From the NCBI GenBank assembly GCA_020641055.1, contig CP067345.1, positions 636,001 to 700,000 on the forward strand: a stretch of DNA of 64,000 nucleotides. Reading direction: 5' to 3'. This stretch comes from Clostridioides sp. ES-S-0010-02 (lineage in GTDB: Bacteria; Bacillota; Clostridia; Peptostreptococcales; Peptostreptococcaceae). The notes beneath the pieces are model-generated. The model was not told the origin of the DNA. It ran no database searches and was given only the letters and a program-made list of their open reading frames with translations. Shown piece by piece: positions 10,729 through 30,775 of this stretch (its first letter is position 1; the number at the start of each line of letters is the position of its first letter). A program made the translations under genes and the position numbers.

Positions 10729-10753
10729 AATATTTATAAACTTATAAAAAATG

Positions 10754-10800: not shown

Positions 10801-10909
10801 TGAATTAATGAAAACTTAAGAGAATAATAGTTTTTTAGAAAATAAAATTAGTATAATAAAATAGGAAACTCAATGATTTAATGTGTATAAAAAATATGGA
10901 GGAAATAAA

Positions 10910-11602
10910 ATGGAAACTATAATGGTTGTAGAAGATGATATTATGCTTAATAATGGTATATGTTTTAACTTACAAAGTGATGGATTTCGAGTTGTACCAA
11001 CATATAGTCTAAAAGAAGCTAAAGAGAAATTTGAGAAAGAAAAAATAGATTTAATGATATTAGATGTAAATCTTCCTGATGGAAATGGATTTGACTTGTG
11101 CAAAGAAATAAGAGCTAGTTCAAAAGTAGGTATTCTGTTTTTGACAGCATGTGATATGGAATCTGATATTGTAAATGGATTTAAGATAGGAGCAGATGAT
11201 TACATAACAAAGCCATTTAGTATAAACATATTGATACAAAGAATAAAAGCACTGCTTAGAAGATGTAATGTTGAAATACAAGAAGAGGTCTTATTTGAGG
11301 GAGAATTTGAATTTAATTTTGATAATATGACTGTAACTAGAAATAGCGAAAATATAATCCTTTCACCTATAGAATATAGAATTCTAAAGAAATTGGTGCA
11401 ACATAAAAATGAAATAGTTACAAGACAAGCATTGATAGATGCAATATGGGACAATGATAGTGAGTATATGGAAGAACATGCATTGACTGTAAATATAAAT
11501 AGATTGAGAAAGAGAATAGACCAGAAAACATCAAAGCATAAGTACATAAGAACTATTTATGGAATAGGTTATATGTGGGTTGGTGAACAAGATGAAAAAT
11601 AA
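10910..11602 (+). CDS. OmpR-family response regulator
   Basis: About 230 residues: an N-terminal receiver domain with acidic pocket VVEDD, phosphoacceptor Asp in DLMILDVNLPDG, and the conserved Thr and Lys regions (FLTACD, ITKPF), then a winged-helix DNA-binding domain (EYRILKKLVQHKNEIVTRQALIDAIW...NINRLRKRID...IRTIYGIGYMW). ATG 10910 is chosen because GGAGG lies 6 bases upstream. It overlaps the kinase gene, so the two form an operon. Together with the ABC exporter at 12955-16195 it looks like a BceRS/LanRK-type module that senses peptide antibiotics or envelope stress. The role is inferred from context. Confidence 0.9.
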   Translation: METIMVVEDDIMLNNGICFNLQSDGFRVVPTYSLKEAKEKFEKEKIDLMILDVNLPDGNGFDLCKEIRASSKVGILFLTACDMESDIVNGFKIGADDYITKPFSINILIQRIKALLRRCNVEIQEEVLFEGEFEFNFDNMTVTRNSENIILSPIEYRILKKLVQHKNEIVTRQALIDAIWDNDSEYMEEHALTVNINRLRKRIDQKTSKHKYIRTIYGIGYMWVGEQDEK

Positions 11603-12770: not shown

Positions 12771-12954
12771 AGTTTCACTTCAATAAATATCACAAAATAT
12801 CTCAAAATTGTTATAATTCATATCTAAAATATAACAGCACTGTGAGGATTGGATAGGGGCTTACATGATAATATCTAAGTAAGGAATCAATAAGCGTGAA
12901 AGTTTAATATACAATTAAAAAATATATAAAATAAAGTAAGAGGGAGATTTGATT

Positions 12955-13644
12955 ATGAAAATACTGGAGACTAATAATTTAAAAAAATATTATGGAAAAG
13001 GTGAAAATATAGTAAAAGCTTTAGATGGAATAAATATAAGTATAAATAGAGGGGAGTTTGTAGCTATAGTTGGGACTTCAGGTAGTGGAAAAAGTACCTT
13101 GTTACATATGATAGGGGGACTTGATAGAGCAAGTGATGGAAAAGTAATTGTTGATAATAATGATATATTTGCTATGGATGATGAAGAACTTACAATATTT
13201 AGAAGACGTAATGTAGGCTTTATATTTCAAAATTATAATTTAGTTCCAATACTAAATGTTTATGAAAATATAGTATTACCTATAGAACTTGATGGATGTA
13301 AAATAGACACTAAATATATAGATGAGATAATAGAAGTTTTAGGATTAAGTCAAAAAGTGGATGACCTACCAAATAATCTATCAGGAGGACAGCAACAGAG
13401 AGTAGCTATTGCAAGAGCTTTAGCAACAAAACCATCAATAATACTAGCTGATGAACCAACAGGTAATTTAGATAGCAAAACAGAACAAGATGTGCTAGGA
13501 CTTTTAAAAGTTACTAGTAATAAGTTTAGCCAAACTATAATTATGATAACTCATAATGAACAAATTGCTCAAATGGCTGATAGAATTATAAGGATTGAGG
13601 ATGGAAAAGTTGTAAATAGAGGTGAGAACAATGTTACAGAATAA
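12955..13644 (+). CDS. ABC transporter ATP-binding protein (MacB/LolD-like)
   Basis: About 230 residues. Walker A GTSGSGKSTLLHMIGGLD, Q-loop FIFQNYNLVPILNVYENI, signature LSGGQQQRVAIARAL, Walker B ILADEPTGNLDS and H-loop MITHNEQIA are all intact. The GGLD and NLDS wording is typical of ATPases that pair with FtsX-type permeases (BceA, MacB, YtrE). ATG 12955 is chosen because GGGAG lies at 9-base spacing. It overlaps the permease gene by 14 bases. Confidence 0.92.
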   Translation: MKILETNNLKKYYGKGENIVKALDGINISINRGEFVAIVGTSGSGKSTLLHMIGGLDRASDGKVIVDNNDIFAMDDEELTIFRRRNVGFIFQNYNLVPILNVYENIVLPIELDGCKIDTKYIDEIIEVLGLSQKVDDLPNNLSGGQQQRVAIARALATKPSIILADEPTGNLDSKTEQDVLGLLKVTSNKFSQTIIMITHNEQIAQMADRIIRIEDGKVVNRGENNVTE

Positions 13645-16293: not shown

Positions 16294-16347
16294 GAAAGAG
16301 GATGTCGCATTAGCACGTTAAATTTGTTCTGTGATAGCTCTTTTTTG
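16294..16347 (+). terminator. Terminator after the ABC permease
   Basis: The stem AAAGAG..TGTCGCA / TGTGATA.CTCTTT (two G-U pairs) runs into TTTTTT. Confidence 0.65.
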
Positions 16348-16444
16348 CTTATAATAATACATTTAGAATGCTTTTTTTAATGATGGATATATATTACACA
16401 TTTGTTTTTTACTATTTTATTGTGCAGTTTAGAAATGTTATGAG

Positions 16445-17305
16445 TTAACAACACAATAATGTATTTTGATAAAACATTTTTTTACATTGGCTTAAAAATC
16501 TTCTAAATTTCATATTTTGCTTTACTTGAGCGAAAGATCCTTCTGCTTGTATACTTCTATTCATTCTAAGCTGACATCCCTCTGGGCTCATAATTATATT
16601 TAAGTTTTCTTTTTTCATGAAATAACTTAGACACTTGTAAGTTCCTAGTTTTATTCTCAAGAGGAATTTTGCTATTATTCTTCTTGAGACAACTGCTTTT
16701 ATACTGAGAATTATGGTATTCTTTAAAAGTGTGACAAGTTATTTCACTTTTATAGCCTGTTTTTGATTTCCTATTTATTATTTTATGAGCAAATAATTTT
16801 TTACTATTTTTACAAATATAATAATCATTTGCTTCATTATAGTCTATATTATCAATATGTCCAATATCAGTTTTATATATTCTAGTTTTACTAATTTCAT
16901 AATTTGTAGGTTTTATGAAAGATAATTGATCATTACGCTCTAAAAATGTATAGTTTTCCTCAACTTCATATCCAGCATCAGCTATTATTTTAGGATATTT
17001 AAACTTAGTATAGTCATCAATAAATTTTAAAAATGGTATTAATGCTGTAGTATTAGTAAGTTGATGTACTAAACTTACCCAAACCATATATTCTGAATTT
17101 ACAGCAAATTGTATATTATATGCTGGTTTCAGTTGTCCATTTTTCATTCTCATAAAAGTTACATCATTATCTGTTTTAGAATAACTATTTCGTTAACCCA
17201 TTATATGAAGATCTTTAGTATATTTTTAAAATCTATCAATATAATTATTTAATTGCTTGATATGTTTTTGAACAATAGACTTTTTCTTTCCTTTTTCATG
17301 AATAA
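16445..17305 (-). pseudogene. Degenerate IS1182-family transposase
   Basis: On the minus strand the peptide signature of IS1182-type transposases is readable in pieces. Reading from 17305 down are an N-proximal piece ending KYTKDLHIMG (with TAA stops before and after it), RNSYSKTDNDVTFMRMKNGQLKPAYNIQ-like sequence, the DDE-domain stretch PKIIADAGYE, and after a frameshift near 16620 the C-terminal QAEGSFAQVKQNMKFRRF. At least two in-frame stops and one frameshift make it dead. The N-terminal third is missing. It sits between the two-component/ABC module and the lanthipeptide locus, evidence of past mobile-element activity at the left edge of the locus. Confidence 0.88.
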
Positions 17306-17538
17306 ATGTTATTTTTGATTCTTTTGATATTGATAAAGATACTTTAAAGTGTGATATTAATGAAAATAATCCTAAGTTTAAAAACTTATTGAGAAGAGAT
17401 TTTGTATTATATAATATTAGATGAGGTATAGGTATATACGCCAATTTAGATGATGATCTTTATGATTATCCTAGTAAAGTATATCGTTATGCTATAGCGC
17501 TTAGAAATATAAATATATTAGGTGTTTCTAATTCATAA
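17302..17538 (+). pseudogene. Unidentified gene remnant with an in-frame TGA
   Basis: An open plus-strand frame runs from 17302 to 17538, broken by a TGA at 17422-17424. The translation is protein-like: INVIFDSFDIDKDT... before the stop and YANLDDDLYDYPSKVYRYAI...LGVSNS after it, without the Ile/Asn/Lys noise of nearby spacer. It has no start codon or ribosome site and abuts the dead transposase. I do not recognise the family. It is probably debris of a gene interrupted when the mobile element or the lanthipeptide locus arrived. Confidence 0.45.
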
Positions 17539-17549
17539 AAAGTTAATAG

Positions 17550-17708
17550 AATTATTCTAATTGTGAAATTAACAATCTATACATTTATAAATATTGCCCA
17601 TTAAATTTCACAACAAATGCTTTTATAAAGTGGAATAAATATAAATTACATAATAAAGATGAATATATAATATCTCATCTAGTTTTTAACTTTAAAGAAA
17701 TAGAATAA
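17550..17708 (+). pseudogene. Second unidentified coding remnant
   Basis: 52 codons open in plus frame between a TAG (17547) and a TAA (17706), reading like a protein C-terminus (INNLYIYKYCPLNFTTNAFI...HLVFNFKEIE). It has no start and no ribosome site. It follows the remnant at 17302-17538 in a different frame and may be the end of the same former gene. Confidence 0.3.
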
Positions 17709-18506
17709 AAAAGTAAGTTATTTAGAATGAAAACGAGTAAAATAATTAATAGTTATGAATGCTATTATTTCAAATACAGAAAATAAGAAATAGTTATAAA
17801 TTAGATACAGTTAATAAAAAAATAAAATATATAATTTTATTTTGATATTTATTTAAAATAAAAATAAAAATTTAATAATTATTTTATGAATATAAATTTA
17901 TAAAATAAAAGAATAAAAATAAAATAAATGATTTGGATTATATGGTTTAGATAAAATATTTGCTGAATATCTATCTTTAACATAAGAACTATGTTAGTTA
18001 TGAATATAAATTTTGTAAAATAAGTAAAATTCAGGTACTAATTATACAAAATTTTTATATATAAAAGTTATGTATTATATATTTATGATTATAATTGTTT
18101 TATTTTTAATTAAATCTATTCTATTATAATAGAATAGATTGTAAAAAAAATAAAATATTAATAGTATATTGTTGAAAAATGAAAAAAAGATTTCGAAAAA
18201 ATTATGTTAAAAGTTTATGTAGATGAAAATAAATATTAAATATAAAAAAGAAAAATAAATATTGAATAATTATTTGATTAGTTATAATAAGGCTATTAAA
18301 TAATAATAAAATTATGTACAAATTATTTTTGCTTCAAAATAACAAGAATACAATGCATTTTTTGAATATTTTGAAAAAATGAATATAATATGTTTTTTAT
18401 TATATTTTTTTGTATATAAAAAAGTATTGTAATGAGTAAAAAAAAATAGTAAACTGATTTCATAAAAATGATTTTTATATGAATCTTAAGAATAGGGAGG
18501 GGTTTA
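17709..18506. other. AT-rich leader region upstream of the lanthipeptide operon
   Basis: About 800 bases, very A/T-rich, with no gene visible on either strand. It holds a perfect 28-bp palindrome at 18113-18140 and a weak sigma-A-like pair (TTGAAT 18262, TATAAT 18283, spacer only 15). The promoter for lanC1-lanT-lanB probably lies here, but I cannot place it firmly. Confidence 0.5.
18113..18140. repeat. Perfect 28-bp palindrome upstream of lanC1
   Basis: Two 14-base arms, AATCTATTCTATTA and TAATAGAATAGATT, meet without a loop. No U-tract follows on either strand, so an operator or cruciform is more likely than a terminator. It lies 367 bases before the first lanthipeptide gene. Confidence 0.6.
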
Positions 18507-19817
18507 TTGGAAATATATAGATTTATTGATTTGGAATCTAAAAATAGAGTTATAAACTTTATAAACTTATATTTCGATGAGATAAAGAAACAGTTCATTA
18601 ATAAAAGTTTAAATCTCAATTATGCAGAAAGTATATTATTATCTATTGCAGATGGATTTTTTTTATTTAATTCAAATGAAAAAGAAATTTTTGATGAAAT
18701 AGGATATTTCTTATGCAAGTACATAAAAGAAGATTTAGAAAAATATGGGATATATAAATCTTTAGGAATGCTATCAGGTTTTGGATACACATGTTTTTGT
18801 GTAAATTCATATAGTAATATTACTGGTAATTTGAAAAAATTTTCTAATACTTTAAATAACATACTATTAAATGAAGTTTATGAAAATGTAAAAAAATATT
18901 ACCATCAAGATTTATGTGTTGATAAATATGATTTAATATCAGGTATTTCAGGGAATTTATATTATTTGCTTGATTGTAATTTTATTTTAGATTGTGATAT
19001 AAAGAAAATTAAATATATAGTTAGATATTTGGTTTATCTTTCTTTATACGATAATGAATTTATTAATTATTTTATTTCAAAATTTGATTCTTTAACTAAT
19101 CTTGAAAAAGAAAATTCTAAGTTTAAAAATGGATCTTTAAATTTTGGATTATCTCATGGTATTATAGCTCCATTAGTTGCAATATCAAAAGCTTATTCTT
19201 TAGGTTTTATTGTTAGTGAAATAGAAGATTCTATAAAGACAATTTATTCATTATATAATAATGAACATTTTAAAATCAAGAAGAATGGATTAGAATTTTG
19301 GCCATCTCAAATTTCTATGGATGAATATTTAAATAAGACAGTTGTAAAATACTTTGTAATGAATTCAAGTTGGTGTTATGGTAATTTTAGCATATATAGA
19401 TGTCTTTATAAAACTCTAGAATATTATGATTTATCAGAAAAAAATAAAAAAAGATATTTGGAATGTTTATATAACATATCAATAATAAATATAGATGAAC
19501 ATAATTTATTAAGTCCTTCATTATGCCATGGATATGCAGGAGTTCTTTGTCAGATTTTACAATGCTACTATGAGACAAGTGATTGTCAATATTTAAAACA
19601 GATAAGTAATATTTTAAAAAAAATAGAAAGCTTATACAATAATAACAACTTAATGATTGAGAAAGATTATAAAATATTAATGGATGATAATAACATATTT
19701 AGAGAAGGATTTAAGTATGATTTTTCATTATTAGAAGGCAGAACTGGAATAGTTTTATCTTTTCTAAATTTATTTAATAACAATTTAAGTTATTGTAAAT
19801 TACTACTTATTGATTAA
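18507..19817 (+). CDS. Lanthipeptide cyclase, LanC-like (copy 1)
   Basis: 436 residues with LanC organisation. The catalytic/zinc motifs are intact: GLSHGIIAPL (active-site His region, about residue 215), SSWCYG (first zinc Cys, about 290), SLCHGYAG (zinc Cys and His, about 338) and the C-terminal LLEGRTGIVLSF. LanC enzymes catalyse Cys thiol addition to dehydroserine/dehydrobutyrine to form lanthionine rings in the cytoplasm. The TTG start at 18507 has GGGAGGGG just upstream. It is the first gene of lanC1-lanT-lanB; the ABC exporter ATG follows its stop codon directly. A second, diverged LanC lies at 27734. Confidence 0.9.
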   Translation: MEIYRFIDLESKNRVINFINLYFDEIKKQFINKSLNLNYAESILLSIADGFFLFNSNEKEIFDEIGYFLCKYIKEDLEKYGIYKSLGMLSGFGYTCFCVNSYSNITGNLKKFSNTLNNILLNEVYENVKKYYHQDLCVDKYDLISGISGNLYYLLDCNFILDCDIKKIKYIVRYLVYLSLYDNEFINYFISKFDSLTNLEKENSKFKNGSLNFGLSHGIIAPLVAISKAYSLGFIVSEIEDSIKTIYSLYNNEHFKIKKNGLEFWPSQISMDEYLNKTVVKYFVMNSSWCYGNFSIYRCLYKTLEYYDLSEKNKKRYLECLYNISIINIDEHNLLSPSLCHGYAGVLCQILQCYYETSDCQYLKQISNILKKIESLYNNNNLMIEKDYKILMDDNNIFREGFKYDFSLLEGRTGIVLSFLNLFNNNLSYCKLLLID

Positions 19818-21623
19818 ATGGAAGTGATTATTATTAAACTAAAAATCTTAAAAATGAAACAAATAATGAACTTAATTTTAGAAACTGATAAAAAATTTAT
19901 CTTTATAAGTCTAATATCTTCAGTAATTTTATCAATTATACCATTATTATCTATAAATTTAATGCAAGAGATAATTAATTTATTACAAATAGGTAATAAG
20001 AATCTAGAAAAGATTTTCTCTATTGTAGTTTTATATTTGATTATTAATTTGGTACTCTCTATACTAGAGATGTTGTTAAGTTATTATAATAGCAAATTTG
20101 GATTAAAATTTAATTTGCATTTAGAAAACTTGATTTTAAGAAAAGCATCAAAACTATCACTAAAAGACTTTGAAGATAGTGATGTATATGACAAGTTCAA
20201 TAGAGCTCAATCAGAAATTAATGATAAAATTATACTTATGATTAGTACTATGATTGAACTGATAACTATATCAACAACTAGTATTTTATATATTTTGAAA
20301 TTTATGAGTTTCAATATTTGGATGATGCCTTTTATTATAATTATACCTATTATAAAATATTTTATCATAAACAAACTTAATATTAAACAATATAATATTA
20401 TTAGAAATAGAACAAATGAATATAGAAAGTCATGGTATTATAGTTATTTAATTACCAATGGAGATGCTTTCAAAGAATTGAAAATAAACAATTTATTTTC
20501 TTATTTTATAAAAAAGTACACTACATATAAAATTAAGTTTAATAAACAAGATCTAACATTGGCAAAAGAAAGATTAACTAAAATGTCAATTTTAAATGTA
20601 TTAGAAGAAATTATTGATGGTATATTATTTGTAATAATAATATATTATGGAATAATTAGAATTATATTAATAGGTGATGTTATTACATATACAAAATTAA
20701 TAATGAATATTAAAGATAATATTAAGAAATTTTTGAATTCAATGACAACATTGAAAGAAAACAGTTTATATGTAGATATGTTTTTTGAACTTTTAGATAT
20801 GACAGATGAAGTTGATTTTCAAGTAAAAAAAGATTTAACAAAAATAGATTCTATCAAAAAGATTGAATTAAAAAACGTGTTTTTCAAATATAAAGAGAAA
20901 CAAGATTATATATTAAAGGATATAAACCTAGTTTTAGAAAAAGGAAAATCTTATGCAATTGTAGGTTTAAATGGAAGTGGAAAAACTACTCTGGGAAAAT
21001 TAATAATGGGATACTATTTCGATTATAAAGGTGAAATTTTAATTGATGGAATTAGTCTTAGAGATATAGATATGGATTCATATAGAGAAAAAATGGGTTT
21101 TTTATTTCAAGACTTTCTAAGATTTGAAGCAACATTCAGAGAAAATATTTACTATGGAAATTTAAATCTAATTGATAATGATATAAATTTAGACAAGATA
21201 ACAAATAGATTTGATTTAAATAAGATTTTAGAGGGTGAGAATGATAAATATGATACTCAACTGGGATATTGGTTTGATTCTGGAAAACAAATTTCAATGG
21301 GACAATGGCATAGAGTTGCATTAGCAAGAACTTTTGTTAAAGATGCAGATGTATATTTGCTAGATGAACCAAATTCTAGTTTGGATCCTCTAACTGAAAA
21401 TAGCTTATCGAATTTATATTCTGAAGTTTTTGAAAATAAAATAGGGATAATAGTAACTCACAGATTCATAAATATTGTAAAGAAAGTTGATGAAATAATA
21501 GTCATGGATAGTGGCATTGTTATAGAGCAAGGAACACATGAAAGCTTATTGAAATATGGGGATTTGTATTCAAAGCTTTATAAAATACAATTAGAAGGAG
21601 ATGTTTTTTATGGAGAATGCTAA
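19818..21623 (+). CDS. Lanthipeptide ABC exporter, NisT-like LanT
   Basis: 601 residues: an N-terminal half with about six membrane helices (residues 25-330) and an ABC domain with Walker A GLNGSGKTTLGK, Q-loop FLFQDFLRFE, signature variant SMGQWHRVALAR and Walker B VYLLDEPNSSLDP. There is no N-terminal C39 peptidase, so this is the class I type that exports modified peptide with its leader still attached, and a separate protease is needed. The signature lacks the usual LSGGQ but fits the xSxGQW form seen in LanT proteins. The ATG at 19818 immediately follows the lanC1 stop. GGAAGTG lies inside the first codons, so a slightly later, unusual start cannot be excluded. Confidence 0.92.
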   Translation: MEVIIIKLKILKMKQIMNLILETDKKFIFISLISSVILSIIPLLSINLMQEIINLLQIGNKNLEKIFSIVVLYLIINLVLSILEMLLSYYNSKFGLKFNLHLENLILRKASKLSLKDFEDSDVYDKFNRAQSEINDKIILMISTMIELITISTTSILYILKFMSFNIWMMPFIIIIPIIKYFIINKLNIKQYNIIRNRTNEYRKSWYYSYLITNGDAFKELKINNLFSYFIKKYTTYKIKFNKQDLTLAKERLTKMSILNVLEEIIDGILFVIIIYYGIIRIILIGDVITYTKLIMNIKDNIKKFLNSMTTLKENSLYVDMFFELLDMTDEVDFQVKKDLTKIDSIKKIELKNVFFKYKEKQDYILKDINLVLEKGKSYAIVGLNGSGKTTLGKLIMGYYFDYKGEILIDGISLRDIDMDSYREKMGFLFQDFLRFEATFRENIYYGNLNLIDNDINLDKITNRFDLNKILEGENDKYDTQLGYWFDSGKQISMGQWHRVALARTFVKDADVYLLDEPNSSLDPLTENSLSNLYSEVFENKIGIIVTHRFINIVKKVDEIIVMDSGIVIEQGTHESLLKYGDLYSKLYKIQLEGDVFYGEC

Positions 21624-24600
21624 TATATATAAATGTCATGATGTTTTCATGGTGAGAACACCATCTTTGCCAATAAACATATACTCAGAATTGGATAGCA
21701 AATATAATGAAAATGTAGAAAAACTAATTCAGGATTATAATTTATACGATTTTTTTGGAGAGAATTTACTTATATCAAGTAAAAATTTATATGATTCTTT
21801 TAAAAAATATACTATTAATAAAGAAGAAGGTAAACAAAAAAAAATAAGGAAATATAATGAAAGTATTTTGAAATATTTGATAAGATCATCATCAAGACCG
21901 ACTCCATTTGGAGGACTTAGTAAGGTTGGATTAGCAAAATTTACTGGTGAAAATGAAAATGAGAAAAATAAATTAATAAGTATATCTAAGGATTTAGTAG
22001 TTAAAAAAATTAGTGTTGATAATTCTTGGTTTCACTATATAGTTAATTTATTTGAAAGTGATAGAGATATCTTAATTCAACTTAACTTAAAAATAAATCC
22101 ATTATGTTATAAATATGGAAATAGATTTAAAAATCCCTATTGCTCTAACTTAGGTAATGAAAATAACATAAATAGAAATAACATTAAATATTCAAACTTA
22201 GTAAAACAGATTAAGGAAGAACTAAAATCTTTTAAAAGTTTTAATGAACTATGTTCATCTATATTGGATATGTATGAAGGAATTGACGAATCAATTGTTT
22301 ATGATACTATCATTAAACTTATAAAAAGTGAATTTATACTAACTGAGTTGAGAACCGATTTGTTGACTTCAAACCCATTAAAAAAACTAATTTCGAAACT
22401 TGAGTTAATAGAATTAAATGAAGAGAAAAAAATAATTTTATCAAAATTAAAGGAACTGGATTATTTAATATTTCTTTATAATAATTGTAATTTAAATAAT
22501 ATTAATAGTATTTTTTCTATAATGGAAAGTATACATAAAGTAAATTCATACTTAATGTTGAATACTGGGATTAAATTTAATAATAATTCAATCAATCTTA
22601 ATATAAAAAAAGATTTAGAAGAATTTGTAAATATTTTTAAATACTTATATGTTGATAAGAAGTATATAAATGAGAATAAACATTTAGAACAAGAATTCCA
22701 AGAAAAATATGGGTCTAATACAGAAATTTCTTTTATAGAATTTATTGACTCTAATGGTTTTAATGCAATAAATAAATTTAGATATAAAAATGATTATAAT
22801 AATATAATGTCTGAAAGAGAAGAAAAAATAAATGATTTATTAGATAAAAAGTTAAGCTTATATCAACTAAATCATAATGATGAAATAGTAATAGAAGAAA
22901 ATGATATAAAAGATGATATTAAGTCATGTATTGATTTACCTATATCATTTGATTTAAATATTTTTATAACACAAGATAAAATGAACAAATATAATTACTT
23001 TCTTGGTCCTAACAGTGGGAGTATCGAAGGGGGTGCTATGTTTCAAAGATTTGAAGAAGTTTTAGATGAAAAATTATTTGAGGAGCATAGGAATATATAT
23101 GATGAAAAAAATGAAATAATTGATAATGATCATATAATAGCAGAAATAAAAGAAATAAACTCTTATGGAAGGATTACTAATATATTCAATAAAACAAGAA
23201 ATTATGAGCATTATATAAACTGTGGATTTCCTTCTAAAAGTATTGATTCAGATATTAACATAGCAGATTTATCGGTAGGTGTAGATGATAATGATTTATT
23301 TTATATTAAGTACAAAGATAATAAAAAAATAAAGTTTGTATTAGATAATATGATAAATCCAAACTTAATAAATGATGTAGCATATATTTTATATCGTATA
23401 ACAAGTAACTATAATAATCACTTTTTATCTAGGATATATATGTTCAAAAATATTAACAGATTTTACATACCAAGAATAAAAATTGGAAAGGTCATAGTTT
23501 TTCCTAAGACATGGATATTAAACTCTCATGATTTTTCAATAGAGAATCGTTCTAAATTTCACTCTGAGTTAAAAGTATACATAAATAAGTTTTCTATTGA
23601 TAAATTTGTTTATTTAAAAAATGATGATAATCGTTTATTGATAAATTTGGAAAAGGAGATATATAGTGAAATAGTATTATCTTCATTAAGAAAAAATAAA
23701 GTAATTGAACTTTGTGAAGTTGAAAGTAATCTTATTGATGGGAGCATAGTAACTGATGAGAATAACAATAACTATGTGTCAGAATTTGTATTTACATTTA
23801 TGGTAGAAAATTATAAAAAAACTAAACCAATAAGACAAGGTAAAAGAGTAATAAATAATTATAGATGTTTTAATTTATTTTCAGATGGGTGGATTTATTT
23901 CAAACTCTATGGTATAGGAGATAGAGATCTAGAAATATTAAATTCTATTGTAGATGATTTAATTCCTAATTTAGATAAACACTTATTTTTCTTCATCAGA
24001 TATTCAGATACTATAGGAGAACATTTAAGAGTACGATTTAAATTTGAGAACAAAGAAAGTTCTTTAAATAATATAACAATAATTAGTAATTGGATAGAGC
24101 AAATACAAAATGATGGAATGATTAATAAAGTAATATTTGATGTTTATGAGAGAGAAACGAATAGGTATGGAGGTTTCAATCTTATTAGTAAAGCTGAAGA
24201 ACTATTTGAATCTGATAGTAAATTTGTAATATCATTATTAAATCATTTTGATACTTCAAATCAAGAAGAGTTAGATAAAATTTATCTATTTGGAGTGATT
24301 TCTATTTTAAAAACATTAACTCAAAATCTAGAAGAACTATATGAAATGTTAAGAATATTTGATGACTTAGAATATAGAAAAAATTTTCATAAATACGACT
24401 TTAATTATGTTAGCTTTGTTGAAAATATTATAAATGAAAAATTTGAAGGATTTATGGAAGAAGAACAGTTGTTAAAAGAATATCTACATAGGAAAAATAA
24501 ACTAATTCAATTTAAAAAATTAATTTACAATGAAGAATCAATTGTTAATATTGATGATCTCAGAGATGTACTCTTATCAATATCACACATGTTTTGCAAT

Positions 24601-24696
24601 CGTCTACATGGTAATAGAAATTATGAAAAAAGAATTTTATCATTAGCTTTTTTGTCAACTAATAAAATTATTAATCAATTAAAATACAAACAATAA
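21610..24696 (+). CDS. Lanthipeptide dehydratase LanB (class I), full length
   Basis: About 1028 residues, normal for a full LanB such as NisB. The N-terminal glutamylation domain includes SSSRPTPFGGLSKVG (about 94-108), a LanB hallmark. A long central region follows, then the C-terminal SpaB_C elimination domain (about 755-1020) with FSDGWIYFKLYG, FFIRYSDTIGEHLRVRFKF and VYERETNRYGG. The enzyme uses glutamyl-tRNA to glutamylate Ser/Thr of the precursor and then eliminates glutamate to give Dha/Dhb. AGAAGGAG lies 9 bases before ATG 21610, which overlaps the lanT stop. It identifies the locus as class I. The precursor genes follow directly. Confidence 0.95.
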   Translation: MENANIYKCHDVFMVRTPSLPINIYSELDSKYNENVEKLIQDYNLYDFFGENLLISSKNLYDSFKKYTINKEEGKQKKIRKYNESILKYLIRSSSRPTPFGGLSKVGLAKFTGENENEKNKLISISKDLVVKKISVDNSWFHYIVNLFESDRDILIQLNLKINPLCYKYGNRFKNPYCSNLGNENNINRNNIKYSNLVKQIKEELKSFKSFNELCSSILDMYEGIDESIVYDTIIKLIKSEFILTELRTDLLTSNPLKKLISKLELIELNEEKKIILSKLKELDYLIFLYNNCNLNNINSIFSIMESIHKVNSYLMLNTGIKFNNNSINLNIKKDLEEFVNIFKYLYVDKKYINENKHLEQEFQEKYGSNTEISFIEFIDSNGFNAINKFRYKNDYNNIMSEREEKINDLLDKKLSLYQLNHNDEIVIEENDIKDDIKSCIDLPISFDLNIFITQDKMNKYNYFLGPNSGSIEGGAMFQRFEEVLDEKLFEEHRNIYDEKNEIIDNDHIIAEIKEINSYGRITNIFNKTRNYEHYINCGFPSKSIDSDINIADLSVGVDDNDLFYIKYKDNKKIKFVLDNMINPNLINDVAYILYRITSNYNNHFLSRIYMFKNINRFYIPRIKIGKVIVFPKTWILNSHDFSIENRSKFHSELKVYINKFSIDKFVYLKNDDNRLLINLEKEIYSEIVLSSLRKNKVIELCEVESNLIDGSIVTDENNNNYVSEFVFTFMVENYKKTKPIRQGKRVINNYRCFNLFSDGWIYFKLYGIGDRDLEILNSIVDDLIPNLDKHLFFFIRYSDTIGEHLRVRFKFENKESSLNNITIISNWIEQIQNDGMINKVIFDVYERETNRYGGFNLISKAEELFESDSKFVISLLNHFDTSNQEELDKIYLFGVISILKTLTQNLEELYEMLRIFDDLEYRKNFHKYDFNYVSFVENIINEKFEGFMEEEQLLKEYLHRKNKLIQFKKLIYNEESIVNIDDLRDVLLSISHMFCNRLHGNRNYEKRILSLAFLSTNKIINQLKYKQ

Positions 24697-24753
24697 TCAT
24701 GTAAATAACAAATGCTTTGTAAATATATAAAAAATACAAGGAGATGAACGTAA

Positions 24754-24951
24754 ATGGGTAAATTTGATGATTTTGATATTGATTTAAAAGAAAATAAAAA
24801 TGGTAATGATGTAGAACCTCGTTTAACTGGTGCTGTATGCTTTAGTATAAATGTATCACTTGAAGCTTGTACAACAGTAATGTCAAAAGTTACATGTGGA
24901 GAGAGTGGTAATTGTAATATTACAAAGATAAGTAAATGTACAGGTAGATAA
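24754..24951 (+). CDS. Lanthipeptide precursor LanA1
   Basis: 65 residues, split as 23 leader + 42 core. The leader MGKFDDFDIDLKENK... holds FDID, matching the F-N-L-D box that LanB/LanC bind in class I leaders, and ends EPR, equivalent to the PR cleavage site of nisin. The core has five Cys (core positions 6, 16, 25, 31, 39) and eleven Ser/Thr. Likely rings are T2-C6, S12-C16, S21-C25, S28-C31 and T34 or S37-C39, three of them the S/T-x-x-x-C spacing. The core ends SKCTGR. AAGGAG lies 10 bases before ATG. The core does not match nisin, subtilin or gallidermin. Ring pairing is inference from spacing only. Confidence 0.93.
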   Translation: MGKFDDFDIDLKENKNGNDVEPRLTGAVCFSINVSLEACTTVMSKVTCGESGNCNITKISKCTGR

Positions 24952-25370
24952 TTTAATTAACATTTATGATTAAATAAATTTTATAAAGCATTTGTTATAA
25001 ATATAGTATTAGTAGTCCTTTACAAGTAAAAATATAGCTGAGTTTGAGTTTTGTAATGAATAGGCTCAGCTATATCATTGGTTAATTTCAATTCAATTTT
25101 AATGATTAACTAAATAGTTTTATTAAGCAATAATACTTAAAAGAAAGTTTATAAAATGTAGAAACATATTTTAGTAGTACAATATATTTTATCAAAATTT
25201 ATTTAAGATATAAAAATCACTGATTGTTATTTAATAAACAAATTATTCTAACAATTGCTAGTTTGAATAACAATAATTCAAAAACAAAAGAAATTATAAA
25301 AACTTAAATAGTAATCATGTAAGTAACAGGTGCTTTATGAATATATAAAAATACAAGGAGATGAATATAA
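24952..25370. other. Spacer between lanA1 and lanA2, part of a tandem duplication
   Basis: No gene. The sequence just after lanA1 (AATTTAATTAACATTTATGA...) reappears after lanA2, and the about 55 bases before lanA1 (ATCATGTAA..TAACA..TGCTTT) reappear before lanA2. The spacer therefore contains the junction of a duplication with a period of about 617 bases. Confidence 0.75.
25032..25075 (+). other. Hairpin downstream of lanA1
   Basis: An 11-bp perfect stem (ATATAGCTGAG / CTCAGCTATAT) with a 22-base loop lies 80 bases after lanA1. No U-run follows, so it may be a 3'-end stabiliser or processing site rather than a plain terminator. A counterpart lies after lanA2. Confidence 0.6.
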
Positions 25371-25574
25371 ATGGGTAAATTTGATGATTTTGATATTGAT
25401 TTAAAAGAAAATAAAAATAATGAGGTACATGCAGAGCCTCGTAAAACTGGTGGAGAGATATGCTTTAGTATAAATGTATCACTTCAAGCTTGTACAACAG
25501 TAATGTCAAAAGTTACATGTGGAGAGAGTGGTAATTGTAATATTACAAAGATAAGTAAGTGTACAGGTAGATAA
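25371..25574 (+). CDS. Lanthipeptide precursor LanA2
   Basis: 67 residues, split as 24 leader + 43 core. It matches LanA1 over the first 16 leader residues and, with one change (Glu to Gln), over the last 37 residues. The differences cluster at the leader end (NNEVHAEPR against NGNDVEPR) and the first ring, KTGGEIC against LTGAVC, which would enlarge the first ring by one residue. The FDID box, the PR cleavage site and five Cys are kept. AAGGAG lies 10 bases before ATG. It arose by tandem duplication of lanA1 with its flanks. Whether the two act together or are alternative products is unknown. Confidence 0.93.
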   Translation: MGKFDDFDIDLKENKNNEVHAEPRKTGGEICFSINVSLQACTTVMSKVTCGESGNCNITKISKCTGR

Positions 25575-25656
25575 TTTAATTAACATTTATGATTAAGTAA
25601 ATTTTATAAAGCATTTGTTATAAATATAACATTAGTATATCTCTATAAGTAAAAAC

Positions 25657-25710
25657 ATAGCTGAGTCTAAGTATTCTAATAATTATTATAAAAAATTTAG
25701 ACTCAGTTAT
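25657..25710 (+). other. Hairpin downstream of lanA2
   Basis: The stem ATAGCTGAGTCTAA / TTAGACTCAGTTAT (14 bp, one G-U pair) has a loop of about 26 bases. It shares the lower stem with the lanA1 hairpin, but the loop has diverged and the upper stem is longer. The stem seems to be under selection. Confidence 0.65.
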
Positions 25711-25791
25711 ATCATCATTTGATTTCAATTTAATTTTAATGATTTTTATACATTATTTTTTATAAAAAATTAAAAAGGGAGGTTATGTTTA

Positions 25792-26763
25792 TTGAATTTA
25801 CAATCAAAATGGATAAACTTTTTAAATCCAATATATATTAGTAATGAAAAAAAAAGAAAAAAAATACAAACTATAATATTTTTTTCTATAACTTATGGTT
25901 TATCCTATTCATTAGGTCTACTATCAATATGTTTTAGAGACTCTATAGATCAAGAAAGTTTTGCTGGATTTATGATGATATTACCATTATCTTCAGTTTC
26001 TATTGCAAAATTTTACACAGAAGGAAGAACTAATGATAAATATGATTTTTATTCATCAATAATATTATTTTTCATTACCTATTTATTTTTTTTTATTATT
26101 GAATTATTAAATTTAATAAATATTAATCAATTTCAATTAGTGAATTCTAGTTTAATTTTAATAAGTAGCTTATGCGTTATTGTCTATTCTTTTAGAATAA
26201 AAAGTTTACATATTTTGAAAAATTTTAAAATAGGTATTTTACTAATTTTTTATTTTATATTTTCTCAAATTGTTTTTGGAGTAATAATAAGTGATAATCA
26301 ATTTAATTATAAAAATTTCTTGAATTATATATTCCTTCCTATAGTATCATTAACATATATTTATCCTTTTTTATCTGAAGAATATGGTTGGAGATATTTT
26401 TTACAAAGTATTTTTTTTGATAGATTTGGTAAAAAAATAGGTATTATAATGGTAGGAACCTGTTGGAGTTTATGGCATTTACCATTACAATTTACACTAT
26501 ATAGTCCCAAAGCTCCAATAATTGGATCTATAGCCCATTTGATATATGGTATTGGACTTTCTATATTTTTAGGTTATGTTTATATGAAAACTAAGAATAT
26601 ATGGTACTGTTCTATAATTCATGTTTTAATTAATAGTTTAGGTGTCATTTTCAATGACTCTGAAATGGTCATTAGTTATCATACTATTATAAAAAGATTG
26701 ATATTTATATTATTGTTTTATATTCCATTTCTACTCACAAAAGAATACAATAAAGATTTATAA
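25792..26763 (+). CDS. CPBP-family (Abi/CAAX-like) intramembrane metalloprotease in the lanthipeptide locus
   Basis: 323 residues with about eight membrane helices. The catalytic motifs of the CPBP/Abi family are intact: EEYGWRYF (EExxxR, about residue 196), CWSLWHLP (the second-motif His) and IIHVLINS (HxxxN, about 279). In bacteriocin loci such proteins serve as immunity proteins or process peptides. No LanP serine protease and no LanFEG/LanI is seen here, so this is the best local candidate for leader removal or immunity. The TTG start at 25792 has AAGGGAGG 9 bases upstream; an out-of-frame ATG lies between. Confidence 0.85.
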   Translation: MNLQSKWINFLNPIYISNEKKRKKIQTIIFFSITYGLSYSLGLLSICFRDSIDQESFAGFMMILPLSSVSIAKFYTEGRTNDKYDFYSSIILFFITYLFFFIIELLNLININQFQLVNSSLILISSLCVIVYSFRIKSLHILKNFKIGILLIFYFIFSQIVFGVIISDNQFNYKNFLNYIFLPIVSLTYIYPFLSEEYGWRYFLQSIFFDRFGKKIGIIMVGTCWSLWHLPLQFTLYSPKAPIIGSIAHLIYGIGLSIFLGYVYMKTKNIWYCSIIHVLINSLGVIFNDSEMVISYHTIIKRLIFILLFYIPFLLTKEYNKDL

Positions 26764-27006
26764 CTAATTTATATAAAATAAAGTTTCAAATAAATGTTTT
26801 TATAGAAAACTCATTATAACAGTGAAAAATAAATAATTCTATATTTAAATTTAAAAGTATTGTATAAGAAATTAGTTTATAGATGATTTTAATAATATAT
26901 TATACTTTATTAAAATTTACATTAAATATACAAAAAATTATTAATTTTTTATTGAATTAAAAAAGTTAGATATACTAAATTTTTCATTGAAAAATTTTAA
27001 TGTGAG

Positions 27007-27753
27007 GTGTTTATTATTAAAAAGAATATTGTAGCAATTACTGGCTCAAATAATGCTAATTCCAAGACAAAGAAAGTTACAGATAAAATACTTGATGAAC
27101 TTATAAAACTTAATTCAGGGTATGAATATAAGAATATTTTATTAGGTGATTTTGATATTAAGTACTGTATTGGATGCCAAAAATGTTTTAAAAATGGATT
27201 TTGTGAAATGGATAACTTTGATAATTTTACTCTTATTCGTGAAGATATGAAAAATGCAGATATTATAATTTTTACTTCTCCTGTATATGTTGATAGTGTA
27301 CCTGGAATAATGAAAACATTTTTAGATAGATTATCGTATCAGTGTCATATCTTAAGTCTTTCAGGAAAATTAGGTTTTACTTTAGCAGTTGGAGATCAAG
27401 GTGGAACAGAAAAAGTTAATGAGCATTTAGATAGTATGCTTAAACACTTAGGTGTTAAGGTATTATCGAGCTATAGTTTTTTAAATATAAATGATTCAAT
27501 TCATGAAAAAACATCTTTGATAGCGAAGGATATATTAAAGAAGACACAAGAGAATTATGGATATTCTAATTATTATCTAGAGCGATTGTTCAAAGCTTAT
27601 AAAGTAGAATATATATCCGAAGCCTATAAGAATAAAATATCAAAACATAATGAAATAAAATTTTGGAATCAAAATTGGATAAAAAAAACTGATTCATTTC
27701 AAGAATTCGCTATAAAAAAAAGGAGTATAGATCATGATTTTACAGAAAAGTAA
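27007..27753 (+). CDS. NAD(P)H-dependent FMN reductase / flavodoxin-fold protein in the lanthipeptide locus
   Basis: 248 residues. Residues 8-165 form a flavodoxin-like fold with the FMN phosphate loop TGSNNANSKT, a Cys pair in YCIGCQKCFKNGFC and the FMN segment FTSPVYVDSVPG. The C-terminal 70-80 residues (NYYLERLFKAYKVEYISEAY...FWNQNWIKK) are an extension beyond ordinary NADPH-FMN reductases. It overlaps lanC2 by 20 bases, so it is part of the locus. It may reduce dehydro-residues to D-amino acids, as flavin-dependent LanJ enzymes do, or supply flavin for another step; both are inference. The GTG at 27007 coincides with its own GAGGTG ribosome site, so the true start may be an ATT a few codons later. 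Confidence 0.8.
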   Translation: MFIIKKNIVAITGSNNANSKTKKVTDKILDELIKLNSGYEYKNILLGDFDIKYCIGCQKCFKNGFCEMDNFDNFTLIREDMKNADIIIFTSPVYVDSVPGIMKTFLDRLSYQCHILSLSGKLGFTLAVGDQGGTEKVNEHLDSMLKHLGVKVLSSYSFLNINDSIHEKTSLIAKDILKKTQENYGYSNYYLERLFKAYKVEYISEAYKNKISKHNEIKFWNQNWIKKTDSFQEFAIKKRSIDHDFTEK

Positions 27754-29035
27754 GATTGAACTAGAAAATGAGTATTTTGAGAAAATTAAATACATTATTG
27801 AATGGTATATGTTGTCTATAAAAGAAGAGTATATAAATGATTATATACCACCATTTAGATATGAAGATTATTTAATTACAATTTCAGAGTTTTTGCCATT
27901 GATAAATAATGAGAGTAGAGAAGAATATATAGAAATGGGATATAGTTTAGCAAAAGGGATAAAACATAAATTAGAATATGAATTTGAAAATTATAAAAAT
28001 CCTTATATGTATTCTGATTTAGGATATATGGCTTTCTCAGTATATTTATTTAATAAAAAAACTGGGCTTTTAGAGAAGTTTTTATACTCACTAAATAATT
28101 TATTGCTAAATGAATGTTATAAAAAAGTTATAGTTCTAACAAGTAATAATATATTTGATGTAAATACAAAAAATACTGATTATGATTCAATATATGGAGT
28201 ATCAGGAGTATTAAACTATCTTTTAGAATTTAAATGGAGAGATGAAGATCTTTTTAAGATAATAAAACTTGGGGAATATCTTATGTCGCTTTGCCTTGAA
28301 TATGAATATAAAGGATATATGGTTCCAAGATTTCATATTAAACCTGAAAATTTAATAAATGAAAAGTATAAATATATATTCCCGGAAGGAAGTTTAGATT
28401 TTGGTATGGCTCATGGTATGTTAGCGCCTTTGATTTCAATAACAAAATTGAAAAGTAAGGTTGAAAATATAAGAGAAATTGATAAGGCTATAGATAAAAT
28501 TTTCAACTTATATGATGTATTTTTAAATAAAGATGATGGGTATTATAAATGGCCATCACAATTATCTATTGAAGACTATTTAAAAGAAGAAAGTAATTAC
28601 AATTCTTTTGCAATGTCAAGGTGGTGTTATGGAGGGATTAGCATAGCTAAGGGATTGAGAAATGCTTCTTTAAACTTAAAAAATGATAAATTAGTGAAGA
28701 AATATGATAACATATTAAAGAATTTATTGACATATAAATATGATGAGTATTATTTGACTACACCTATTTTATGTCATGGTCACAGTAGTATTTTATCTGT
28801 AATGACAATAATGTATAAAGAAACTAATGATAAAGATTATTTGTATAATCTTAATATGACCTTGAAAGAAATATTTCAATTATTTGAACCATCATTAAAG
28901 TATGGTTTTAAAACATTAGATGATTCAATAATAGATAGTACTTCATTTTTAGAAGGAACAACTGGAATAATCTTATCATTAATTTCTATATTAAGTAAAG
29001 AATCTGATTATGAGAAATTATTATTTTTATCTTAA
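27734..29035 (+). CDS. Lanthipeptide cyclase, LanC-like (copy 2)
   Basis: 433 residues, a diverged paralogue of the LanC at 18507. The motifs are complete: GSLDFGMAHGMLAP, SRWCYGGIS (zinc Cys), PILCHGHSS (zinc Cys-His) and SFLEGTTGIILS. Since both copies keep all metal ligands, neither looks dead. They might act on different rings, on LanA1 versus LanA2, or form a heteromeric complex with LanB/LanT. AGGAG lies 8 bases before ATG, inside the end of the flavin reductase gene (20-base overlap). It is the last gene of the locus. Confidence 0.9.
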   Translation: MILQKSKIELENEYFEKIKYIIEWYMLSIKEEYINDYIPPFRYEDYLITISEFLPLINNESREEYIEMGYSLAKGIKHKLEYEFENYKNPYMYSDLGYMAFSVYLFNKKTGLLEKFLYSLNNLLLNECYKKVIVLTSNNIFDVNTKNTDYDSIYGVSGVLNYLLEFKWRDEDLFKIIKLGEYLMSLCLEYEYKGYMVPRFHIKPENLINEKYKYIFPEGSLDFGMAHGMLAPLISITKLKSKVENIREIDKAIDKIFNLYDVFLNKDDGYYKWPSQLSIEDYLKEESNYNSFAMSRWCYGGISIAKGLRNASLNLKNDKLVKKYDNILKNLLTYKYDEYYLTTPILCHGHSSILSVMTIMYKETNDKDYLYNLNMTLKEIFQLFEPSLKYGFKTLDDSIIDSTSFLEGTTGIILSLISILSKESDYEKLLFLS

Positions 29036-29042
29036 ATTAAAA

Positions 29043-29093
29043 AATTTAGTATAAAAGATATAATTTTTAATTTTACATCTTTTATACTAAATT
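29043..29093 (+). terminator. Hairpin terminator at the end of the lanthipeptide locus
   Basis: A perfect 17-bp stem (AATTTAGTATAAAAGAT / ATCTTTTATACTAAATT) begins 8 bases after the lanC2 stop. The trailing U-tract is weak. Confidence 0.7.
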
Positions 29094-29624
29094 AGTTTAT
29101 CAAAATATGTGTGAAGCTGAAGGCTCTAATGTTTTTGGATGTAATTGTCTTATACTGTATTTTTTCAATATTTATAAAGTTAAAATATTACCAAGAATCT
29201 GTATTAGAGCAAAATGTAATAATGTTTATATGAGTAAGTGAATATAGTATAAGGATTTTGGCTTTGTACATAAAAATAAAAATACTTGACAAACCATTGG
29301 AATATTAATCGTGTCCAAATACATATTAGAGGAGACAAAATTATAGAAGTTCTAGAATCATGAAAAAATATTAGAATAATAGATATAGAAAAGAACTTGT
29401 AAGCTAGGGTAGATTTCTGGGTTTAAAATAACGTATTTAATTTATTTGTATAGAACAATTAAAAATTTACTTATTGAGATAATTAAAAAATAACTGTCAC
29501 AGAAAAAATAATTTACTCATGTGACAGCCATTTTTGATATTATGTTTTTGTTTTTTATCTGAAAAATTTAAAATAAAAATGTTATTTTAATAATCTAAAT
29601 AAAATTTATTTTAATATTAATTTT
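29094..29624. other. Intergenic region right of the lanthipeptide locus
   Basis: No convincing gene. A 44-codon frame at 29107-29241 has no ribosome site. A promoter-like TTGACA (29287) is followed by AGAGGAGAC with only ATT behind it, like a decayed gene start. The hairpin CTGTCAC/GTGACAG at 29494-29527 probably terminates the minus-strand flavodoxin operon. Confidence 0.5.
29494..29527 (-). terminator. Terminator of the PadR/flavodoxin operon
   Basis: The stem CTGTCAC...GTGACAG, read on the minus strand, is followed by TTATTTTTTAATT about 100 bases after the stop at 29625. Confidence 0.5.
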
Positions 29625-30275
29625 TTATTTTCTTAATATATCACTTTTAGTCAGTCCATTTGATTTACCTTGAGGAGTCCAATGATAATTAGACATAGAT
29701 TTAAATAGAAATCTAGGAAAGTTAGGTGATATAAAAATATTATCTTTACTAGAAGTGTTACTATCTATGTTGTTACTAAGTATATTCTTTGATAGTTCTC
29801 CTAATGAAGTTCCTAAGCTTTTTTTTGGACCTTTACCTAAAGGAGTAGATTGTAATGAACCTAGCATTTCTCCTCCACCAATTCCTATCCCTTGAACCCA
29901 TGTAAAGTTAACCCTTTTACACCAATTTTCTATCATTTGAATTGCTAAATGAGTTTGTTTCCCTTCATAGAATCCACAGTTAACTATTGCATATACTGGA
30001 ATAGATTTTTTATTTAGTTTCTTCGCACATTCTTCACATTCCTCTAAAAAACGAATTAAATGAGAAGGAATGCCATCTACATAAAGAGGAAATGCAATTA
30101 TTAACCTATCACAAGTAAGTATGGCTTCAATAGCTTTAGGATATTTAGATACATTGTCTATTTTAAATGTGAGAATGTCATTATCCTTTTGTATAAGTTT
30201 TTCTACTTCAGATAAAAAGTATTGTGAATTATTTTCTTTTACTTTTGGGCTTCCATTTATCATTACTATATTCAT
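29625..30275 (-). CDS. Flavodoxin-like NAD(P)H-dependent oxidoreductase
   Basis: 216 residues. MNIVMINGSPKVKENNSQYF is the flavodoxin-fold opening with the FMN phosphate loop, followed by AFPLYVDGIPSHLIRFLEE, the usual FMN-reductase wording. A GWCK-like region (WCKRVNFTWVQGIGIGGGE) and a Gly-rich loop follow. It is a cytoplasmic quinone/nitro or flavin reductase of unknown substrate. It overlaps the upstream gene by 4 bases (ATGA type), so the pair is translationally coupled. The operon is headed by a PadR regulator, which suggests induction by an aromatic or xenobiotic compound. Confidence 0.82.
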   Translation of the reverse strand: MNIVMINGSPKVKENNSQYFLSEVEKLIQKDNDILTFKIDNVSKYPKAIEAILTCDRLIIAFPLYVDGIPSHLIRFLEECEECAKKLNKKSIPVYAIVNCGFYEGKQTHLAIQMIENWCKRVNFTWVQGIGIGGGEMLGSLQSTPLGKGPKKSLGTSLGELSKNILSNNIDSNTSSKDNIFISPNFPRFLFKSMSNYHWTPQGKSNGLTKSDILRK

Positions 30276-30775
30276 AAAGATTCACCTCTTACATCTTGTG
30301 GATTTTTAAAAAATGAAACAGAATGTTCCTTCATATTGAGATTTACAGCATTTGCACGTACTAGATTAGTAGCAGTGTCTTTTTCAGTATCTGTAATACA
30401 ATCCCCATAGAATAAAGCCTTTAAATTTATCTGTTTTTCATATCTATTTTTATGATGCATTTCATTATTCTTTATTACAAAGTATGGAAGGAGATAGCTT
30501 ATACTTCTATCAAGTATATTTTTGACAAATGGGCTAAATCCACCATAACAACATCTACTTATTATAATAAATTCATCAGAATCAGCTATCAATTTACCCA
30601 TATTTCTGTAATAGTCTTTTATGACACATGTAGTAGGTGTTTTAATCCAACAACCAAAACAACCAATACACTTGTGGATTTCTTCAGTGTTTGAAAGTAT
30701 TTTTATATTGTTATCAAGTTTAGGTAATAAATTATCTAAATCTTTTTCAGTTAAATCATGTATTAAAAGTCTCAT
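30272..30775 (-). CDS. Flavodoxin-family protein with Cys-rich motif
   Basis: 167 residues. It lacks a classic N-terminal GSPR loop but has HKCIGCFGCWIKTPTTCVI, the CxxCxxCxxxxxxC-type motif of iron-sulfur flavoproteins, followed by IADSDEFIIISRCCYGGFSPFVKNILDRS, an FMN-reductase segment. It may bind a flavin and possibly an Fe-S cluster (inference). It is coupled to the next flavodoxin gene by a 4-base overlap. A purine-rich GGGGG site precedes ATG. Confidence 0.78.
   Translation of the reverse strand: MRLLIHDLTEKDLDNLLPKLDNNIKILSNTEEIHKCIGCFGCWIKTPTTCVIKDYYRNMGKLIADSDEFIIISRCCYGGFSPFVKNILDRSISYLLPYFVIKNNEMHHKNRYEKQINLKALFYGDCITDTEKDTATNLVRANAVNLNMKEHSVSFFKNPQDVRGESL

Follow-up and report, generated by a model that had tools for sequence, protein, structure and literature searches.

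Do LanB/LanC systems, too, install D-residues in the peptides that they modify? A concrete and intact-looking candidate for this question is the lan locus described here, at positions 18507-29035 of a 64,000-nucleotide stretch of Clostridioides sp. ES-S-0010-02 (contig CP067345.1, positions 636,001 to 700,000 of the forward strand). We call this whole stretch the window, and all coordinates refer to it unless another locus is named. We consider it rather probable that this is a class I lanthipeptide locus in which some of the spare dehydro residues are reduced to D-alanine (D-Ala) or D-aminobutyrate (D-Abu). The host is a single-contig genome (G000) of 4,259,110 bases, in which a genome-wide LanB search matched only the LanB of the window. 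Eight lan genes, all open and all on the plus strand, follow one another in the order C-T-B-A-A-CPBP-reductase-C:

18507-19817, plus strand: LanC1, lanthionine cyclase, 436 amino acids (aa), TTG start (PF05147, LANC_like, 9.9e-33; conserved site residues)
19818-21623, plus strand: LanT, ATP-binding cassette (ABC) exporter, 601 aa (PF00005, ABC_tran, 1.5e-27)
21601-24696, plus strand: LanB dehydratase with N- and C-terminal domains, 1031 aa (PF04738, Lant_dehydr_N, 2.9e-83; PF14028, Lant_dehydr_C, 1e-39)
24754-24951, plus strand: LanA1 precursor, 65 aa (open reading frame, ORF; leader match to TIGR03731 at 3.2e-4, under the cut-off; alignment with LanA of relatives)
25371-25574, plus strand: LanA2 precursor, 67 aa (ORF; likeness to LanA1)
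25792-26763, plus strand: CPBP (Rce1-like) membrane protein, 323 aa (PF02517, 6e-17; alignment with 9 CPBP from related loci)
27007-27753, plus strand: putative LanJB-type flavin mononucleotide (FMN) reductase, 248 aa, with a C-terminal extension (PF03358, FMN_red, 7.1e-26)
27734-29035, plus strand: LanC2, second cyclase, 433 aa (PF05147, 3.6e-35; tree placement)

The lanC2 gene overlaps the reductase gene by 20 bp. These are the eight genes that a preliminary description of the DNA had called, and its coordinates, open frames and strand were all borne out, as were its identities by Pfam and NCBIfam. What it termed an uninterrupted run is so in strand and order, but not in spacing, since AT-rich intervals flank each lanA and precede the reductase gene. 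Its statement that the catalytic motifs are intact agrees with the LanC site residues and the LanB profile alignment given below, and the absence of LanP and LanFEG agrees with a census of ORFs: the eight genes aside, the insert that holds the locus has no plus-strand ORF of at least 50 aa, and its sole other ORF of at least 100 aa is a transposase fragment, so that nothing is left in it for LanP or LanFEG. For LanT, no peptidase C39 family was reported by Pfam or NCBIfam, the best NCBIfam model being MsbA, below its cut-off.

Both LanA ORFs open with MGKFDDFDIDLKENKN, which carries an FxLD-type leader box, a mark of class I precursors. An FxLx box is named for precursors of this class in passages of PMC6768957. 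The LanA1 leader contains FDDFDIDL and EPR and is followed by the predicted core LTGAVCFSINVSLEACTTVMSKVTCGESGNCNITKISKCTGR; the predicted core of LanA2 is KTGGEICFSINVSLQACTTVMSKVTCGESGNCNITKISKCTGR. The two precursors are identical at 57 of 67 aligned columns, most changes falling where the leader ends and the core begins, and from CFSINVSL onward the cores differ by a single residue. Neither belongs to a Pfam family, and the NCBIfam model TIGR03731 (gallidermin/nisin) matches only the leader part, at 20.7 bits (LanA1) and 16.2 bits (LanA2) against a cut-off of 29.3. We predict that the leader is cut after EPR, a boundary supported by a class I locus outside the clostridial group described below (L032), where EPN seems to play the same part ahead of a nisin-like ITSVSLCTPG core. 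Cut in this way, the cores would be 42 and 43 residues long and rich in Ser, Thr and Cys; each has 11 Ser/Thr and 5 Cys, which leaves no fewer than six Ser/Thr without a Cys partner for ring formation. Their computed masses are 4325.07 Da (LanA1) and 4468.14 Da (LanA2) before modification and would fall to 4126.95 and 4270.02 Da on full dehydration.

The enzymes are those of class I. LanB has Lant_dehydr_N and Lant_dehydr_C within one protein, and a profile of 5 LanB sequences aligns along NisB and the solved chain 9g04, as seen to near the C-terminus. The two separate LanC proteins, 35% identical, both carry the zinc-site Cys/Cys/His and the conserved Asp and His; in LanC1 numbering, Asp142, His217, Cys290, Cys340 and His341 are invariant in 8/8 aligned LanC, among them the two of the window. 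Judged by motif, they correspond to those named for NisC in passages of PMC9889658 (Asp141, His212, Cys284, Cys330 and His331), the printed alignments being with MadC (8byk) rather than NisC. The nearest solved structures are a class I LanC, MadC of maddinglicin, whose 8byk chain was the only one found for LanC, and a class I LanB, 9g04, which is presumably MadB; MadB and MadC stand outside our LanB and LanC trees. MadA is given in part of PMC9889658 as 73% identical to geobacillin I, with a nisin-like N-terminus.

In the reading that we prefer, the products of the locus would be two class I lanthipeptides of almost the same sequence. LanB would dehydrate Ser and Thr in both LanA cores, LanC1 and LanC2 would add Cys to form up to five thioether rings, and the LanJB-type reductase would hydrogenate some of the up to six leftover dehydro residues, giving D-Ala or D-Abu. 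The peptide would be exported by LanT, and the leader would be cut after EPR by a protease encoded outside the insert or by the CPBP protein, which most likely serves to protect the producer.

The gene set had been described as unusual. It is an unusual class I locus, but it does not stand alone, since a second LanC, a CPBP protein and the lack of matches to LanP and LanFEG recur in clostridial relatives. A scan of genome contigs with the single LanB gave no relative, while an alignment-based search gave 11; G663 is C. liquoris again and was not counted a second time. The relatives were annotated by BLAST of the window proteins and by Pfam, with the gene orders listed here (Red, reductase; coordinates are those of each locus):

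L007, C. difficile CD10-165: C T B C CPBP, with LanA on the other strand
L013, Lachnospiraceae 3-2: A CPBP Red CPBP C T B C
L012, C. liquoris: B A CPBP CPBP C CPBP T, with LanB (8995-12102) interrupted by a stop
L020, Evtepia gabavorous: B A CPBP C T
L018, C. mobile: B A A C
L008, C. difficile 173070: A B C T Red, with a broken CPBP gene (1477-2457) on the other strand
L009, Metaclostridioides mangenotii: A B C T CPBP
L010, Peptostreptococcus sp. D1: T CPBP A B Red C
L031 (G282, 1098-11321): LanB and three LanA-like ORFs, neither LanC nor LanT being matched in 19.5 kb

The window and these nine relatives group together, apart from six other class I loci, with support of 100/100 for its 12 LanC rows and, in a quick tree, a Shimodaira-Hasegawa-like approximate likelihood ratio (SH-aLRT) of 100 for its 10 LanB rows; the LanB and both LanC of the window lie inside it, and the window locus, like most members, has a CPBP gene. 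The eight named relatives (L007-L010, L012, L013, L018 and L020) share the LanB group and an FDLDL-type LanA with the window, and 7/8 have CPBP, one of them broken. The preliminary description had proposed to look for the locus in other genomes, and although related loci were found in this way, none has the gene order or the core of the window; two LanC are present in 2/8 (L007 and L013) and a reductase in 3/8 (L008, L010 and L013).

The trees hint at how the second cyclase was acquired. The LanC2 of the window groups with the LanC of L008, L009 and L010 (100/98), while the LanB of these three loci have a clade of their own (100), separate from the seven rows among which the window LanB falls (95). 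The LanC pairs of L007 and L013 come together in yet another clade (100/99). A recent local duplication was considered and rejected, the approximately unbiased (AU) test giving p 0.0004 for LanC1 and LanC2 of the window as sisters, a p that serves as a guide since the test was chosen after the tree was seen. By the same test the LanC pair of L007 as sisters was not rejected (p 0.055), and that the LanC1 of the window groups with C. liquoris and C. mobile is neither shown nor rejected (p 0.21). The reductase of the window is the sister of that of L010 (99/98, 43.5% identical), where the gene also lies directly 5' of lanC. Thus, the locus looks composite, because LanC2, with its adjoining reductase, groups with another sub-lineage. 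We read these trees to mean that two-LanC loci arose at least twice, once within the line of L007 and L013 and once in the window, by the joining of a reductase-LanC module to a C-T-B locus; the module may well have arrived as a single unit. As its two cyclases differ in descent and its two precursors are near-equal, the locus is also a natural test of whether ring formation is shared out among LanC proteins. A more specific scenario, which we put forward only tentatively, is that D-Ala and D-Abu are made by an iron-sulfur flavoprotein of the LanJB kind coupled to a dedicated LanC2, the pair having been added together to a C-T-B-A locus, with the two LanC closing different rings or acting before and after reduction.

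Two further observations on the relatives can be noted. In L031, three proteins of ~650 aa that resemble one another accompany LanB, and its peptides are perhaps dehydrated yet not cyclised by LanC. Genes for M56 (BlaR1-type) peptidases adjoin the lan loci of L007 (1969-3492) and L013 (894-2436), and L007 has in addition a penicillinase-repressor gene, L013 a small gene that looks similar to it; control of these two loci by cell-wall stress is possible.

Which protein removes the leader, and what the CPBP protein does, are linked questions. The window CPBP has EEYGWR (EExxxR) and two later His, and the EE, the R and both His are kept in 10/10 aligned CPBP. A CPBP profile matched 8/10 loci of the group, with the L008 gene broken, and 0/6 outside loci; it was built from the ten intact CPBP of the group, so that their own matches arise by construction while L008 and the misses do not. 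Because of this distribution, CPBP seems to stand where LanP and LanFEG usually stand. The two loci without it (L018 and L031) also lack a LanT match. Outside the group, L011 has MutE/EpiE and MutG permeases, a lantibiotic-protection ATPase and a subtilisin-like protease, making it the sole outside locus with a confirmed LanEFG and a positive control for this set, and L032 has an ABC ATPase below the cut-off of the lantibiotic-protection model and permeases that match nothing. It is conceivable, if doubtful, that the CPBP protein replaces LanP as the missing leader protease and is not an immunity protein. The presence of CPBP across the group would fit this, as would its retained EExxxR and His motifs and the lack of an S8-type protease in the window insert, whereas L011 has its subtilisin-like protease together with LanEFG. 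In addition, passages of PMC6768957 suggest cleavage of a precursor by a CPBP protein in L. lactis. However, the varying copy number (three in C. liquoris, two in Lachnospiraceae 3-2, none found in C. mobile) fits protection better than a single obligatory cut, and a soluble leader would presumably have to be cut by an intramembrane protease. Moreover, S8 family matches occur in five ORFs of the genome, of which the nearest lies ~58 kb from lanC1. A clostripain-type protease for the EPR site was also considered and set aside, as the genome has no C11 family match.

The D-residues of our preferred reading depend on the reductase. It had been labeled a flavin reductase, which holds insofar as it is of the FMN_red family; that it is of the LanJB kind and likely reduces dehydroalanine and dehydrobutyrine (Dha/Dhb) is a reading beyond that label, drawn from comparison with its relatives. 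LanJB proteins are described in parts of PMC7268733, PMC11519912 and PMC10373908 as flavin enzymes that reduce Dha/Dhb, and CrnJ as one of them in PMC10373908. Like CrnJ (carnolysin) and BsjJB (bicereucin), as the available passages describe them, the window protein would be flavin-dependent, belongs to the FMN reductase family and is encoded in a lanthipeptide cluster; they are from class II and it is from a LanB/LanC locus, and the likeness drawn here is one of description. Its relatives on plasmids keep similar company. In the 14 plasmid contexts viewed (among the records with at least 80% coverage in the first search, 4/9), the 8 better-scoring relatives, with E <=7e-11 (or 1e-11) in one plasmid search or <=3e-18 in another, adjoin LanB (1) or LanM (7). 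They comprise P. sordellii pCS1-5 (with LanB, LanT and LanC), P. sordellii FL-manatee, two from S. aureus, P. megaterium, L. sakei (a record annotated lactocin-S), S. aureus pHUV05-02 and Macrococcoides canis, and the 6 weaker relatives (E 1e-8 to 6e-6), chosen for comparison, have no annotated lanthipeptide gene nearby. Among 391 sampled Clostridia genomes, the reductase was found in 6 at E<=1e-20, beside LanB or LanM in 5 of them, the host included, and in the sixth on a 6.2 kb contig with no lanthipeptide synthetase seen. The class I reductase of C. difficile 173070 (L008, 9845-10576) and a class II reductase on a P. sordellii plasmid (L054, 7004-7744) are sisters (99/98, 60.9% identical), as would be expected if the enzyme acts on the dehydro residues common to both classes, and LanJB-type genes seem to move between lanthipeptide classes.

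Sequence motifs separate these reductases from other flavodoxins only in part. The window protein has CX2CX2CX5C at residues 54-66, which we take to be a motif as in iron-sulfur flavoproteins. The exact form is present in 6/6 class I rows, 5/9 LanM rows and 2/8 comparison flavodoxins, the four LanM-linked rows that miss it being the two of S. aureus, P. megaterium and the lactocin-S row of L. sakei; lactocin S contains D-Ala. A looser form (CX2CX2C with the fourth Cys 4-7 residues on) is present in 6/8 comparison rows, and the motif is thus old rather than specific. A C-terminal E-x3-W is found in 13/16 lan-linked or unplaced rows, missing from the P. sordellii class I row, the lactocin-S row and the unplaced L073, and in 0/8 comparison rows; it is also present in SP1951 (1sqs), the nearest solved chain, which aligns over residues 9-235, nearly the full length, and for which we found nothing in the open-licence PubMed Central (PMC) literature that ties it to lantibiotics. 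Several points weigh against a role in D-residue formation. The split between lan-linked reductases (with L073) and plain flavodoxins has weak support (73/81), and the window and L010 proteins fall outside the group formed by the 13 other lan-linked rows. Further, with a crude cut after residue 23, spare Ser/Thr number 5-11 in 9 peptides from loci with a reductase and 2-7 in 8 peptides from loci without, leaving out the second LanA of C. mobile and the LanA of L031 and L015, none having been identified in L011; as these ranges overlap, spare Ser/Thr were rejected as a predictor of the reductase. It could be argued from the weak clade and from the spread of the cysteine motif among comparison flavodoxins that the flavoprotein leaves the peptide untouched and is a general redox helper in a class I locus, for example keeping precursor thiols reduced. 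We regard this as improbable, as its relatives adjoin LanB or LanM in several hosts and the E-x3-W of lan-linked rows is absent from the comparison rows.

The locus is an import into the Clostridioides genome. It occupies, together with a transposase remnant, an insert that is missing from the nearest relative, the Clostridioides genome G005, which is collinear at 94% identity up to 16309 and from 29560 and has 197 bp between; two other genomes (G002 and G006) have ~1.6 kb at this position. The insert has a G+C content of 21.7%, and the remaining window one of 28.7%.

16310-29559, no strand assigned: insert of 13.25 kb holding the transposase remnant and the entire lan locus (absent from G005; G+C contrast)
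16566-17153, minus strand: transposase fragment at the start of the insert (Pfam DDE_Tnp_1, 6.5e-4, 20 bits, below the cut-off of 23)

LanB is rare and scattered. Matches at E<=1e-20 are found in 3/8 genomes of the genus and 6/71 of the family, the host included, a LanB profile matches 8/393 genomes of the order at E<=1e-30, and 2/391 of the class match at E<=1e-150, one being the host. Carriage on viruses or plasmids was considered and set aside. On plasmids, 78 records match LanB, all below 60% identity, and at 24-29% among the 20 matches listed; 45 pattern matches in viral contigs include no relative of the locus. An import of this kind may be decaying or silent, with LanC2 and the reductase as passengers and no product. 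The transposase fragment and AT-rich debris in the insert lend this some weight, and with LanB of C. liquoris and CPBP of C. difficile 173070 interrupted, these relatives look partly decayed. We nevertheless think it unlikely, as the eight genes of the window are open, with conserved motifs and overlapping frames, and a single residue separates the two lanA cores from CFSINVSL onward.

Two neighbors of the insert were weighed as parts of the locus and are not favored. The ABC transporter at 12949-16195, whose permease is full length in 4/8 genomes of the genus (host included), is present at the empty site in G002, G005 and G006, which is why it is not counted as a lan gene. Two-component genes also lie on this side of the insert, at 10883-12656. 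The flanking FMN reductases (29625-30775) were considered as tailoring enzymes, and their stretch is matched in 7/8 genomes of the genus, again with the host.

That the locus simply encodes an ordinary member of the nisin/gallidermin family is very improbable: the FxLD-type box, the EPR before the core and the weak leader match to TIGR03731 recall that family, but both LanA fall below its cut-off, the insert lacks LanFEG and LanP, the LanB and LanC lie outside the group with LanEFG-bearing L011 and nisin-like L032, and the core has no CTPGC. More closely comparable systems have been described in part. Two lanC around lanT and lanB are reported for the Clostridium sp. BR31/Merdimonas faecis cluster (Clos24) in passages of PMC6768957, and two LanC for Frankia EAN1pec and C. 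cellulovorans in part of PMC3091789. The BR31/M. faecis cluster resembles the window in having its two lanC separated by lanT and lanB and an FDLDL leader; unlike the window, it has a different core, which was expressed with nisin enzymes according to the same passages of PMC6768957, and a lanM upstream. By eye, the BR31 core shares SVETPTTGMTSACCKK with the LanA of L013, its apparent kin, in which both LanC are from one sub-lineage whereas those of the window are from two, BR31 itself being outside the tree. For the reductase, passages of PMC7268733 report that class I clusters can contain genes for FMN reductases of the LanJB kind, and that by then (2020) only class II products had been observed to have D-residues; class II plus one class V case is the tally in part of PMC11519912 (2024). 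Passages of PMC7268733 also mention a CAAX protease in some class III clusters. Two-LanC clusters and class I LanJB genes are both in print, and therefore neither is new alone. In the passages found in the open-licence PMC literature, those of PMC12506125 included, we found no report of this locus, nor of a class I product with D-residues; what is new relative to these passages is the gene combination, the mixed descent and this core, the kind itself being already described. If the product were antibacterial, it might, speculatively, be a weapon among competing gut clostridia.

Finally, each lanA and its ribosome site lie between the arms of a repeat with a predicted RNA stem:

24705-24998, plus strand: 19-nucleotide inverted repeat framing lanA1, with ribosome site and ORF inside (RNA fold prediction)
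25323-25621, plus strand: the same 19-nucleotide inverted repeat framing lanA2 (RNA fold prediction)

The stems have z-scores of -2.1 and -2.8. The 3' arms are identical; between the 5' arms there are five A/G differences, and each pair is still A-U or G-U. A pattern derived from the arms has exact matches only at these four arms, and matches with 2 mismatches at a fifth place. The repeats may act as a transcript stabiliser or attenuator, setting the level of the lanA transcript, or, there being two copies only, may be due to chance. A hairpin follows each repeat unit.

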